Shown piece by piece: positions 36,467-41,710 of a DNA stretch of 45,171 nt. The notes beneath the pieces were generated by a model. The model did not search any database. It had not been told where the DNA came from and was given only the letters and a program-made list of their open reading frames with translations. Position 1 is the stretch's first letter, and every line of letters begins with the position of its first letter. The position numbers and the translations under genes were made by a program. Source of the stretch: an uncultured Pelagibacteraceae bacterium (lineage in GTDB: Bacteria; Pseudomonadota; Alphaproteobacteria; Pelagibacterales; Pelagibacteraceae); assembly GCA_905616445.1 (NCBI GenBank), contig CAJQSV010000013.1, forward strand, positions 1 through 45,171, written 5' to 3'.

Positions 36467-37411
36467 TTAAGTGTAAACGCCTTCTTTCACTCGTATCATT
36501 TTATATAACATGTCGTTTAAGGGTGTTGGCACACCATGATTTTTACCAATCAAAGATACGGCTCCGTTTATAAAATCTATTTCACTTTTTCTTTTGTATA
36601 AAATATCAAATGCCATAGATGATTTATTTGTTTGATTTGAATCAACTATCTTATTAAACATCTCAAGACATTCATCTTCAGATACATCAACTCCGTCTGC
36701 TAAGGCAACACTTCGAGTTTCTAAAATTATTTTTTTTCCTAGATCTCTTGCAAAACTTTGATTTTTATTTGCTATATAAAGTTCAGTATGATTCATGTCA
36801 AACATAGCAGACAAAGGACCGATTGCTGTTAATGCAAATAACTTCATCCATTTTCTTTTTTTAACATTGTCGGATGCTATAGTTTCTAATCCATAAGCAG
36901 TAAAGGTTTCTGCTACATCTTTAACCCTATCACTCATTCCACCATCGTATTCACCAATCCAAGACGGTAAAGATGCGTGGTTTTTAATATTTCCTGGTCC
37001 TATAATGTTTGCAGCTTGTGTTGTTGTGCCGCCTAATACTTTTTCTTTTCCTGCAATTTTTTGCATAATAGCTTCGTGGCCAATACCGTTTTGAAAAGAC
37101 ATTAGAACTGTATTGTCACCAATAATATTTTTTGAATTTATTAAAGCTTGCTCTAAAGCAGTAGCTTTACACATTATAATAATTGCATCAACTTTATCTA
37201 ATGTTTTAGGATTTACAGTTGCTTTAATTTTAATAAATCTATCGCCACCATGTCCATCCATTTTTAAACCATTTTTATTAATCGCTTCAACATGTTCTTT
37301 CCAAACATCGATTAAAGCTACATCAAGACCCTTCTCGGCTAATAAACCTCCAAACAAGCATCCCATTGCGCCAGCCCCGAGAACAGCTACTTTTAAATCT
37401 TTTTTAATCAT
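36467..37411 (-). CDS. 2-dehydropantoate 2-reductase family protein
   Basis: A PanE/ApbA-family NADPH-dependent reductase, 314 residues. The Rossmann motif is VLGAGAMGCLFGGLLAEKG (9-27). MCKATALEQAL and SFQNGIGHEAIMQKIAGKEKVLGGTTTQAA are family stretches, and KWMKLFALTAIGPLSAMF holds the catalytic lysine region. True PanE makes pantoate for pantothenate and CoA; many paralogues reduce other 2-keto acids, and the first position in a dioxygenase-exporter unit makes a paralogue plausible. It is divergent from the Gfo/Idh gene across 133 bp (to the preferred start). Confidence 0.82.
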   Translation of the reverse strand: MIKKDLKVAVLGAGAMGCLFGGLLAEKGLDVALIDVWKEHVEAINKNGLKMDGHGGDRFIKIKATVNPKTLDKVDAIIIMCKATALEQALINSKNIIGDNTVLMSFQNGIGHEAIMQKIAGKEKVLGGTTTQAANIIGPGNIKNHASLPSWIGEYDGGMSDRVKDVAETFTAYGLETIASDNVKKRKWMKLFALTAIGPLSAMFDMNHTELYIANKNQSFARDLGKKIILETRSVALADGVDVSEDECLEMFNKIVDSNQTNKSSMAFDILYKRKSEIDFINGAVSLIGKNHGVPTPLNDMLYKMIRVKEGVYT

Positions 37412-37544
37412 TTTAAGTATAATTATTATATATATTTTTTATATATAATCTATTAATTTTATAATATTAAAATTCAATTATTTACTATGAATAATGAAAA
37501 TATTATTTGAAAATACATTCAAAAGTTGTAATTTTAATAAGTTT

Positions 37545-38579
37545 ATGAAAAAAGTTAAAATTTCAGTTGTTGGAATTGGTTTAATGGGAAATCAACACCT
37601 TAATGCCATTGAACGTTCTCATAAAGCAATTCTACATTCAATAGTAGATATTAATAAAGATTCTCGTTTGCATGCAAAAAAAAATAAAGTCCCCTTTTAT
37701 AAAACTTCTGGAGAACTATTAAAAAATAATAAACCAGATGCTGTTATTATTGCTACACCAAACCAGTTTCATGAAAAACATACTTCCAGTTTTTTAAAAG
37801 CAAAAATTCCTGTGCTTTTAGAAAAGCCTATTTCTGACAACCTTTTATCTGCAAAAAAAATAATTAATAATTCAAAAAAAAATAAAACTCATCTTTTAAT
37901 TGGTTACCACAGAAGGCATAATTCAATAGTTGCATCGTTGAAAAAAAAAATAGAATCGGGACAATTAGGTAAAATTGTCTCAGCAAATGTCATGTGTTGG
38001 GTCTATAAACATAAAGATTATTTCAAAGAAAAATGGAGAATAAAAAAAGGTGGCGGTCCTTTAGGCATAAACTTAGTTCATGATATAGATTTAATATGCT
38101 ATCTTCTGGGACCTGTAAATTCTGTTCAAGCACTGACATCTAACTCAATTAGAAGATATAGAGTTGAAGATACAGCAATTGTAAATCTAGTTTTTAAGTC
38201 TGGAGCTTTATGTACTTTGAATGTTTCGGATACAATTGTTGCGCCTTGGAGTTACGAATTAACTTCTGGTGAAAATCCTACTTATCCAGCTACTAATCAA
38301 TCATCTTATTATATAGGTGGCACAAAAGGTTCTGTCCAATTTCCTAATTTAAAACATTGGTACAATAAGAAAGAAAGAAGTTGGTGGAAAAAAATATTTT
38401 ATAAAGATGAGGGTGTAAAATCAAGTAAATATACATTGGTTAATCAAATAGATCACTTATGTGATATTGTTCGAAAAAAAACTAAACCAAAAATTAATGG
38501 AAATGATGGGTTAATCTCTCTTAAAATATTAGATGCAATTTTAAGAAGTTCAAAATCTGGCAAGAAAATAAAAATTTAA
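37545..38579 (+). CDS. Gfo/Idh/MocA-family oxidoreductase
   Basis: An NAD(P)-dependent sugar or cyclitol dehydrogenase, 344 residues from the ATG at 37545. I choose this start because MKKVKISVVGIGLMG begins the Rossmann fold; the frame is open to an ATG at 37494. Other family features are the AVIIATPNQFHEKH strand and VLLEKPIS (the conserved EKP with its catalytic lysine). GGGPLGINLVHDIDLICYLLG gives the HDID substrate-binding motif. Substrate not visible. It is 38 bp upstream of the DUF1907 gene on the same strand and probably cotranscribed. Confidence 0.87.
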   Translation: MKKVKISVVGIGLMGNQHLNAIERSHKAILHSIVDINKDSRLHAKKNKVPFYKTSGELLKNNKPDAVIIATPNQFHEKHTSSFLKAKIPVLLEKPISDNLLSAKKIINNSKKNKTHLLIGYHRRHNSIVASLKKKIESGQLGKIVSANVMCWVYKHKDYFKEKWRIKKGGGPLGINLVHDIDLICYLLGPVNSVQALTSNSIRRYRVEDTAIVNLVFKSGALCTLNVSDTIVAPWSYELTSGENPTYPATNQSSYYIGGTKGSVQFPNLKHWYNKKERSWWKKIFYKDEGVKSSKYTLVNQIDHLCDIVRKKTKPKINGNDGLISLKILDAILRSSKSGKKIKI

Positions 38580-38617: not shown

Positions 38618-39586
38618 ATGAAATTAACAATTGAAAAAGCTAGTTTTAAAAAAATATCTTTAGACGAGATATGTAAAGCTTTGCAAAAAGGTCTTTCTAA
38701 CAATTTTAAAGAAGTAACGGTTTCTGTAGTAGACTGCCCTAACTTGAAGGATTGGGATTGTCCTGCTGAAGGTATGTCTGGAAATCAAAAAATTACTGAT
38801 GTTGGTGGTGAACCATATATGCATGACAAAAAATATATTGGAGCAGAATTTGATTTTAAAGAAGTTGCTAAATTAATTGGTTCAGAAAAATCGTATGCTT
38901 TTGGAGCTGGATCTGGTGCTATGTCTTGTTTAGGTGGACACTGCGGTGAACTAGTTATTAACGACAACTTTATAACAGAAGAATCTAAGTCAGTTATTGC
39001 TATGGTAGGAAAAAATAAAGAATGTGTAGCCAAAGATTATACCGATAGAAAGCATGGTGGACTGGGTAACATATTTTATACAGATGGTGAGCAAGGCAGA
39101 GTAATTAAAATTTTAATTAAAGGTAGATCTGGAGAACAGGGTTCTTTAACCCAAGCAATAAGAGCTGCTTTATTAGAAAATTTAGATTTAAAAGGTAATG
39201 ATCATTTAGGATTAGCTGGAGTTTTCAGGGTTTTAAAAGGAAAAATCAAATCTCATGTTCAGCCAGATTACGAAGATATTAAACACGAATACTATGATCC
39301 AAAACAAATGAAATGTGTCAAAGATTTTCTTCAATTTTATCAATCTGTTGGCTCTGAACTCCAATGCTACTCTGTTTTATGGACTGGTGATCCAACAGGA
39401 GGGGATATGAATTTAAGAGAATCTTCTGAACATACACATTTTCATTCATACAACAATAAACAAGAAGCTGGGCACTATCACTGTGATGTGACACCAGATG
39501 AAATTGAATATGAATGTTATTTTAATACCGCAGATGAAATCTATAGAATTAACAATATATACAAAGAACTAGCCTCAAAAGTATAA
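38618..39586 (+). CDS. DUF1907 protein, bacterial homologue of the human ester hydrolase C11orf54 (PTD012)
   Basis: 322 residues that align along almost their whole length with my memory of human C11orf54. Matching blocks include KGLSNNFKEVTVSVVDCPNL (24-43), VGGEPYM, YAFGAGSGAMSCLGGHCGE, GKIKSHVQPDYE, and the His-rich EHTHFHS followed by AGHYHCDVTPDEIEY. The histidines H272, H274, H276, H286 and H288 correspond to the zinc site of PTD012, as I recall H-x-H plus a later H. The family has esterase activity in vitro; the physiological substrate is unsettled. No signal peptide, so cytoplasmic. It lies between a Gfo/Idh enzyme and a MarR-like regulator on the same strand. Confidence 0.87.
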   Translation: MKLTIEKASFKKISLDEICKALQKGLSNNFKEVTVSVVDCPNLKDWDCPAEGMSGNQKITDVGGEPYMHDKKYIGAEFDFKEVAKLIGSEKSYAFGAGSGAMSCLGGHCGELVINDNFITEESKSVIAMVGKNKECVAKDYTDRKHGGLGNIFYTDGEQGRVIKILIKGRSGEQGSLTQAIRAALLENLDLKGNDHLGLAGVFRVLKGKIKSHVQPDYEDIKHEYYDPKQMKCVKDFLQFYQSVGSELQCYSVLWTGDPTGGDMNLRESSEHTHFHSYNNKQEAGHYHCDVTPDEIEYECYFNTADEIYRINNIYKELASKV

Positions 39587-40856: not shown

Positions 40857-41246
40857 ATGAGTGAAAATAATAGACTAGTGCTAAACAGCTTAAAAAAAAG
40901 TCCTAAAGGGCTTACTGCTTACCAGATATTAAATATTGTACTTAAATCTAAATCTATACAGCCAATGACAGTTTATAGGGCTCTAAAGAACCTAACTACT
41001 AATGGCTTAATACATAAAACTAATAAAAATAAAACTTTTCATCTTTGTGATACAGCGCATGTTTGTAATACGACTAAAGCACATGAGCACAATGCTGTTT
41101 TAGCAGTATGTAATGATTGTGGTGTTGCTGAAGAATTAAAAACAGACTTATTTTCAAAAATAATTAAAAATATTAAATCAAAGAAAAGATTTAATTTTAA
41201 TAACTTTAACTTAGAAATAACAACAACGTGTAAGGAGTGCAATTAA
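40857..41246 (+). CDS. zur: Fur-family transcriptional regulator, Zur-like
   Basis: A 129-residue metal-responsive repressor. The winged helix covers about 1-70 (SENNRLVLNSLKKSPKGLTAYQILNIVL, MTVYRALKNLTTNGLIHK). The metal/dimer part has FHLCD, AHVCNTTKAHEHNAVLAVC, and the paired cysteines CNDCG and CKEC (C-terminal) of the structural zinc site. The long HEHN region and the Zur-type palindrome in its own promoter favour zinc rather than iron. The downstream membrane-protein gene starts within its stop codon (TAATG), so the two are co-translated. No znuABC genes are in the window. Confidence 0.82.
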   Translation: MSENNRLVLNSLKKSPKGLTAYQILNIVLKSKSIQPMTVYRALKNLTTNGLIHKTNKNKTFHLCDTAHVCNTTKAHEHNAVLAVCNDCGVAEELKTDLFSKIIKNIKSKKRFNFNNFNLEITTTCKECN

Positions 41247-41710
41247 TGAAAAAAGTAAGTCTTTTAACTGTAATAATATATATATTTAGCTTTGCTTTTC
41301 TTCGAGCTGCAGAAGGTCATTCACATAAGGTGCCAGAATTTCTTCACTTTATGGAAGAATTAATAGAGGAACATAGTATTTTAAGAGGTGCAACTTTTGG
41401 GTTTATTCATACTTTAATTCCTCTAGTTGGTTTTTATACAGGTTGGAGCATAAACCGTTTTTTAAAAATAATATCTAACGGTGCAATTGCTGGAATTGTT
41501 GGAATAGTTTTTGCCCATATTGTTGCAGACTTTATCGCTGCATTGGCTGATCCTGATTTAAAAAGTGCAGCTTTTGGAATAGTTATTGGTGGTTTTTTAC
41601 CTTTACTAGCAGTGCCTTTCTTGGAGAAATACGTTACCAAAAGTAAATATCACACCGTTGTTGGTGACCATGAAGATCTGAAAAAAGATTTAAAGAAAAA
41701 ACACAAATAA
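41246..41710 (+). CDS. small membrane protein cotranscribed with zur, function unknown
   Basis: I start this at the ATG at 41246, which overlaps the zur stop and has a near-ideal AAGGAG (41232-41237) 8 bases upstream; 154 residues. A signal-like hydrophobic N-terminus ending ...FLRAAEG is followed by a His-containing stretch (H25, H27, H34, H43). Three hydrophobic segments follow (around 48-68, 76-100 and 107-130). The second carries AHIVADFIAAL with H91-xxx-D95, a pattern that binds zinc in CDF-type transporters. The tail is charged (HEDLKKDLKKKHK). I do not recognise the family. The coupling to a Zur-like regulator and the His/Asp pattern suggest a metal role; this is inference. Confidence 0.75.
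   Translation: MKKVSLLTVIIYIFSFAFLRAAEGHSHKVPEFLHFMEELIEEHSILRGATFGFIHTLIPLVGFYTGWSINRFLKIISNGAIAGIVGIVFAHIVADFIAALADPDLKSAAFGIVIGGFLPLLAVPFLEKYVTKSKYHTVVGDHEDLKKDLKKKHK

Follow-up and report, generated by a model that had tools for sequence, protein, structure and literature searches.

A C11orf54-type DUF1907 protein, probably a metal-dependent decarboxylase, in a shuffled catabolic island of SAR11 bacteria

Introduction

What does a relative of the human protein C11orf54 do in a streamlined marine bacterium? The question arises from a contig of 45,171 nucleotides (CAJQSV010000013.1, assembly GCA_905616445.1; the whole stretch is called the window here) of an uncultured Pelagibacteraceae bacterium, a member of the SAR11 group. 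A preliminary description, made from the sequence, recognised in it a DUF1907 protein closely resembling C11orf54 and correctly placed it in a streamlined marine genome. It proposed that the neighbouring genes, a Gfo/Idh dehydrogenase and a MarR-like regulator, might reveal the natural substrate of the family, and suggested assays for esterase or lactonase activity.

The premise of an unsettled substrate no longer holds. Before 2025 no reaction had been assigned to C11orf54 (PMC12435205); in that year it was reported to be a 3-dehydro-L-gulonate decarboxylase that forms L-xylulose (Malatesta et al., PNAS 2025, as related in the commentary by Galperin 2025, PMC12435205); the activity is also cited in PMC12921845. 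The family extends from mammals to fungi and includes some bacteria (PMC12435205), DUF1907 is listed among the domains in marine metagenomes (PMC3597751), and in rotifers it is fused to a 3HCDH-type dehydrogenase (PMC12435205). Among the matches listed in literature searches on C11orf54, PTD012 and DUF1907, no description of a SAR11 member or of its gene setting was found, and searches joining SAR11 with ketopantoate, or with uronic acid and xylulose, returned no literature. The DUF1907 family is thus known and the function of its human member has recently been assigned; new here are the SAR11 island in which the gene lies and its constant ApbA-type partner.

Results

Family membership of the DUF1907 protein

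The gene coincides exactly with an open reading frame that begins with ATG (Table 1). Its product matched the Pfam profile PF08925 (DUF1907) over the full length of the profile (positions 1-285 of 285; residues 22-311) with 209.9 bits, far above the cut-off of 25, which confirms it as a bacterial DUF1907 protein. A phmmer search of the PDB gave one match, 1XCR, the human PTD012 (C11orf54) protein (E 1.5e-39, residues 8-313), and a profile built from 20 SAR11 DUF1907 proteins likewise retrieved 1XCR alone among PDB matches to E 1 (E 1.4e-43). The motifs named in the preliminary description were all present and aligned with the human protein: the DCP block (VVDCPNL in the window, VVDCPDL in human), FGAGSGAM (LGAGAGPF) and EHTHFHS...GHYHCD (EHTHFFS...GHYHYD). 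MAFFT paired 286 residues with the human protein at 38% identity, and alignments based on structure gave 30-31%; the homology is full-length, and a close resemblance is strong wording for it.

An alignment of nine SAR11 DUF1907 proteins with the human protein contained 71 invariant columns, which include EHTHF, S277, GHYH and D290, and E271, H272, H274, H286 and H288 were unchanged in all ten rows. The frame was open in 19 other aligned SAR11 proteins, 65-84% identical to that of the window, and together with the invariant columns this excludes a chance resemblance. The metal site of the family consists of three conserved histidines (PMC12435205). Conserved histidines are likewise present here and are predicted to act as metal ligands; the histidine block is shared with the human protein, which goes against the divergent active-site residues that the preliminary description had considered as an objection.

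Predicted fold

An AlphaFold2 model of moderate confidence (pLDDT 73.7, pTM 0.80) was computed from a 20-sequence alignment. It matched 1XCR with a TM score of 0.75-0.77 (E 3.7e-23) in Foldseek and with Z 31.4 and rmsd 2.7 over 294 residues in VIA-align. The next nine VIA-align rows were acetolactate decarboxylases or an entry whose description likens it to one (Z 9.9-11.3, 204-216 residues, rmsd 3.7-4.4, identity 8-12%), and the first unrelated row had Z 4.9. Acetolactate decarboxylases were absent from the 50 Foldseek rows listed and lay beyond the reach of the profile of 20 SAR11 proteins in the PDB (E up to 1). These enzymes catalyse the metal-dependent decarboxylation of a 2-hydroxy-3-keto acid, and the match to them leads us to read the window protein as a putative metal-dependent decarboxylase of such an acid and not as a lactonase. 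The fold match of the model agrees with the structural argument in the Galperin commentary (PMC12435205).

Distribution

DUF1907 scored above the cut-off in 91 of 397 sampled genomes of the order, and in 31 of the 151 that are at least 90% complete. All 91 belong to one family and to three of 13 genera. In the samples of the class (385 genomes) and the phylum (398), the genome of the window was the sole match. With these bacterial members and the range from mammals to fungi, the earlier statement that DUF1907 is known mainly from animals proves too narrow. A scan of a genome collection confirmed 261 relatives; among the best 80 of these, 79 are titled Pelagibacteraceae or Pelagibacter, one is titled Flavobacteriaceae, and no donor lineage was found. 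In these samples DUF1907 is patchy within SAR11 and rare outside it, which suits horizontal acquisition. An origin from a mobile element was rejected, as none of the 27 pattern-matched stretches in viral contigs was confirmed and the plasmids and phages searched held no relative.

The contig titled Flavobacteriaceae (L060; CAJWFY010000124.1, 1-4460) encodes a DUF1907 protein 96% identical to that of the window, flanked by the same ApbA, Gfo/Idh and regulator genes. Since its neighbours are window-like and DUF1907 occurred in none of the other 295 genomes sampled from the phylum of this metagenome-assembled genome, it is probably a misbinned SAR11 contig.

Gene setting in the window and its relatives

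The window was compared with 29 further loci from three genera (g1, g214 and g217), giving 30 loci. A second set of 80 closest-relative loci (81 rows with the window) overlaps the 29, and its counts are kept separate; its patterns were as in the 29 loci.

Table 1. Features of the DUF1907 locus in the window, with the PanB-like protein of related loci
Feature	Position	Strand	Basis
EamA-family transporter, 308 aa	34504..35430	-	PF00892, 55.5 bits
PhyH-family 2-oxoglutarate dioxygenase, 327 aa	35430..36413	-	PF05721, 72.9 bits
ApbA/ketopantoate-reductase-like dehydrogenase, 314 aa	36467..37411	-	TIGR00745, 244.9 bits (cut-off 141.35)
Divergent intergenic region between ApbA-type and Gfo/Idh genes, putative shared control region	37412..37493		ORF coordinates
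Gfo/Idh/MocA-type dehydrogenase	37494..38579	+	PF01408, PF02894; 38 bases upstream of DUF1907, same strand
DUF1907 protein, 322 aa, predicted C11orf54-type metal-dependent decarboxylase	38618..39586	+	PF08925, 1XCR, model match
Small winged-helix-like regulator candidate ("MarR-like"), 126 aa	39637..40017	+	SarA/Rot, 20.8 bits (cut-off 27)
2-Keto-4-pentenoate hydratase-like protein (FAH superfamily), 258 aa	40025..40801	-	TIGR03220, 35.5 bits (cut-off 408.8)
PanB-like protein, relatives	L031:9983-10795; L048:10182-10997	+; +	close copies in 38/44 positives

In the window, the EamA, PhyH and ApbA-type genes diverge from the Gfo/Idh, DUF1907 and regulator genes, and the FAH-type gene lies behind the latter. 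The Gfo/Idh neighbour of the preliminary description is real, both of its Pfam domains being found. Its MarR-like regulator stands as a small winged-helix-like candidate, with the label itself weak, as SarA/Rot was the sole Pfam match at E up to 0.001 and fell below the cut-off. The FAH-superfamily protein matched no Pfam family; compared with a single representative of the FAH-like genes that lie divergent to DUF1907 in relatives, it showed 27% identity (E 3.7e-10).

The Gfo/Idh frame carries 17 residues ahead of its second methionine (window 37494-37545). Close relatives align to it from residues 2-18 onwards, and in many g214 cases the alignment crosses an in-frame stop, so the true start may be 37545. 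Beyond the FAH-type gene, window positions 40857-41710 encode a Fur-family regulator and then a small membrane protein whose similarity to ZIP/Mntp is weak and below the cut-off; the two are possibly a metal-transport pair.

Around DUF1907 in the relatives, a set of genes recurs that comprises the ApbA-type dehydrogenase, the PhyH dioxygenase, a second 2-oxoglutarate/Fe oxygenase, a PanB-like protein and an FAH-type hydratase-like protein, together with an SDR, Gfo/Idh, the small regulator, and EamA and Liv-like ABC transporters. Some islands add a CoA ligase, an enoyl-CoA hydratase, HpcH/HpaI-type lyases and an enolase-superfamily enzyme nearest a galactonate dehydratase. The Gfo/Idh, enolase-superfamily and HpcH/HpaI aldolase proteins fit sugar-acid catabolism.

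The order of these genes varied, with at least four arrangements of the one set. The gene divergent from DUF1907 is the ApbA-type one in all 11 loci of g214. In g1 and g217 it is an FAH-type gene (17 loci; one more, L058, is truncated by a contig end), with the ApbA-type gene at another place in the DUF1907 region. Gfo/Idh directly adjoins DUF1907 in the window only among the 30 loci, and in the window and L060 only among the 81 rows. An ortholog of the small regulator follows DUF1907 immediately downstream in 9 of the other 29 loci. The EamA transporter is present in 15 of the 30, counting the window, and an SDR is near in 14 of 30. Some genomes have the ApbA-type gene and Gfo/Idh on the contig of DUF1907 but at a distance from it, 6-9 kb for the former and about 14-25 kb for the latter. 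The island is also present in a genome assembled as one contig of 1.44 Mb (G416). These results show that DUF1907 lies in a mosaic catabolic island, shuffled but recurring. The expectation that the gene setting would be informative was borne out; the context is shuffled in order, but it is not the loose one that was held to speak against the proposal.

Co-occurrence of island genes with DUF1907

Co-occurrence was surveyed in 76 Pelagibacteraceae genomes, 44 with DUF1907 and 32 without. The positives were 43 of the 91 from the order, with a listed completeness of at least 88%, and the genome of the window (64%); the negatives were 14 of the 20 listed for the order and 18 from another sample, each at least 87% complete. 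With identity limits for a close ortholog that were set after a gap had been seen, the ApbA-type gene (at least 75%) was found in 44/44 positives, in three of them as a copy cut at contig ends, PhyH (at least 49%) in 43/44, the PanB-like gene (at least 68%) in 38/44, the genome of the window being among the six without it, and Gfo/Idh (at least 66%) in 36/44, each against 0/32 negatives. The ApbA-type pattern held inside g1 (8 positives, 14 negatives), g214 (34 and 6) and g217 (2 and 1); Fisher values on this within-genus pattern ignore shared ancestry and were not taken as proof.

Below the limits, a PanB-like match was present in 75 of 76 genomes, mostly 26-35% identical where a close copy was absent. 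One negative genome (G450) had an ApbA-type match of 26-32%, five had PhyH matches of 28-38% and two had Gfo/Idh relatives of 42-44%; other Gfo/Idh proteins occurred in many genomes among the matches listed. Distances of DUF1907 and the island genes were correlated with r of 0.66-0.90 (19-28 of 30 loci per pair), the DUF1907-ApbA value of 0.66 being the lowest of the four DUF1907 pairs; such correlations do not separate function from co-inheritance.

The strongest partner of DUF1907 is thus the ApbA-type enzyme and not Gfo/Idh. The Gfo/Idh dehydrogenase retains the support of its co-occurrence, but its adjacency is rare, and its candidacy as the key partner is weakened accordingly.

An L-xylulose kinase as the following step showed no link: FGGY kinases were found in 37/44 positives and 17/32 negatives, and in neither of the two g217 positives. 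This survey is a blunt test, because glycerol kinases too fall under FGGY_N. The lack of a link between FGGY kinases and DUF1907 speaks against a plain L-xylulose route.

Likely chemistry of the partner enzymes

The ApbA-type protein passes the TIGR00745 cut-off. Its best PDB match was 3wfi, deposited as a 2-dehydropantoate 2-reductase, which we take to be a D-mandelate dehydrogenase; on this ground its sequence suggests a D-2-hydroxyacid dehydrogenase. Ketopantoate reductases act at C2 of the hydroxyacid and not at C3. The closeness of the protein to them counts against a role in making a 3-keto acid. Were it to oxidise C2, the product would be a 2-keto-3-hydroxy acid, a single tautomeric shift away from the 2-hydroxy-3-keto acid that DUF1907 would need; alternatively, the enzyme might act at C3. 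For the 3HCDH family (CRYL1, L-gulonate 3-dehydrogenase), the 3HCDH_N match of the protein was weak (24.9 bits, residues 7-46), and the 3HCDH C-domain was absent in Pfam at E up to 0.001. As judged by its domains, it does not belong to that family.

The best PDB matches of the Gfo/Idh protein were 3q2i and 3q2k, presumably sugar-nucleotide uronate 3-dehydrogenases. The PanB-like protein was rejected as a true PanB: the L031 copy scored 96.3 bits against a panB cut-off of 207.55, and in the L048 copy the positions of PanB Asp84 and Glu114, which we assume to be metal ligands, align to Ala and Pro, so that the ligands seem to have been lost.

Discussion

We consider it likely that the window protein is a C11orf54-type metal-dependent decarboxylase acting in a SAR11 catabolic island. 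This reading builds on direct observations, namely the DUF1907 and 1XCR matches, the fold match, the invariant histidine block and the gene linkage (44/44 against 0/32 for the ApbA-type gene), and on the reported function of the human protein. What follows on the chemistry, the sequence of steps, the part played by each neighbour and the substrate is predicted. A hydroxylated acid would enter by the EamA or Liv-like ABC transporter. It would be converted to the keto acid by an NAD(P)-dependent dehydrogenase, for which the ApbA-type enzyme (36467-37411) is the first candidate and Gfo/Idh (37494-38579) the second. DUF1907 would hold a 2-hydroxy-3-keto (sugar) acid by its carboxylate and keto group at the histidine-bound metal and release CO2 to leave a ketose one carbon shorter, as in the conversion of 3-dehydro-L-gulonate to L-xylulose. 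Aldolase-, hydratase- or SDR-type enzymes might then pass the product into central metabolism. Reduction of L-xylulose might fall to the SDR, but this gene is near DUF1907 in only 14 of 30 loci, a point against the reading. The rotifer fusions of DUF1907 with a dehydrogenase offer a parallel to the DUF1907-ApbA pairing (PMC12435205). As the identity to the human protein is 30-38%, the SAR11 substrate may be a different one. On a more tentative level, SAR11 may break down a common marine hydroxyacid or sugar acid by an unrecognised pathway, in which an ApbA-type and not the animal 3HCDH-type dehydrogenase feeds the C11orf54-type decarboxylase and which is encoded by a modular island exchanged between lineages.

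Two narrower forms of the decarboxylase reading can be considered. The protein might be specifically a 3-dehydro-L-gulonate decarboxylase that yields L-xylulose, in which case the ApbA-type or Gfo/Idh enzyme would serve as a non-orthologous L-gulonate 3-dehydrogenase. The activity described for human C11orf54 (PMC12435205; PMC12921845), the residues conserved with it and the co-occurring dehydrogenase are in its favour, but the FGGY kinase does not track DUF1907 and the route has no need of the oxygenases, CoA ligase, enoyl-CoA hydratase and PanB-like protein held by the islands of relatives, so we regard this form as doubtful. The substrate might instead be another 2-hydroxy-3-keto acid, possibly branched and acetolactate-like, that the ApbA-type enzyme provides as a D-2-hydroxyacid dehydrogenase, the PanB-like protein handling a related branched skeleton. 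This form, also on the unlikely side, would account for the acetolactate decarboxylase fold match and for two ketopantoate-type families as partners (ApbA/PanE-like in 44/44, PanB-like in 38/44); it is opposed by the low panB score and the replaced ligand positions, by the lack of a close PanB-like copy in the 64% complete genome of the window, and by the sugar-acid-type neighbours.

That the genes merely travel together in a variable genomic island, with no common pathway, appears improbable to us. The blocks are present or absent jointly in related, non-independent genomes, joint gain and loss is expected of genes that form an island, and the distance correlations are those of any co-inherited block, with the DUF1907-ApbA pair lowest. 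However, one gene set persists through at least four arrangements, and the link is kept even where the ApbA-type and Gfo/Idh genes lie kilobases away on the same contig; that the ApbA-type gene is retained in every arrangement seen speaks for a functional link. The earlier proposal of esterase or lactonase activity towards sugar lactones that the Gfo/Idh dehydrogenase would form, for which the adjacent gene in the window and the hydrolysis of p-nitrophenyl acetate by the human protein can be cited, is very unlikely and was rejected as the main reading, since that hydrolysis was the source of the "ester hydrolase" label (PMC12435205) and the idea thereby loses its main basis, the human member is now reported to be a decarboxylase, the fold matches decarboxylases, and Gfo/Idh adjoins DUF1907 in one of 30 loci.

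For the probable decarboxylase, a bacterial relative of C11orf54 with a tightly linked candidate dehydrogenase opens a genetic route to the substrate range of the family, and the SAR11 island may point to an as yet unknown carbon source of abundant marine bacteria. The constant ApbA-type partner makes the substrate question testable with two purified enzymes.

Several known systems can be compared with this locus. UlaD-type 3-keto-L-gulonate-6-phosphate decarboxylase performs a comparable step on a phosphorylated substrate, and to our knowledge its fold is unrelated to that of DUF1907. The ApbA-type partner resembles ketopantoate reductases in its TIGR00745 score. In alignment with 3hwr its residues give a mixed picture: the Lys and Glu, presumably catalytic there, are kept, whereas Leu and Gly replace two Asn. 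It differs from these reductases in being paired with DUF1907 in 44/44 positives, with no close ortholog among the 32 negatives. The acetolactate decarboxylases (4BT3, 6INC) share the fold of DUF1907 residues about 54-321, but the identity is 8-12%, the N-terminal part lies outside the match and the sequence profile does not reach them. With human C11orf54 (1XCR) the window protein shares full-length homology, the fold, the HTHF...GHYH block and the 71 invariant columns, whereas it is bacterial and 30-38% identical, its substrate is a prediction, and the dehydrogenase of its island is of the ApbA type and not of the 3HCDH type.
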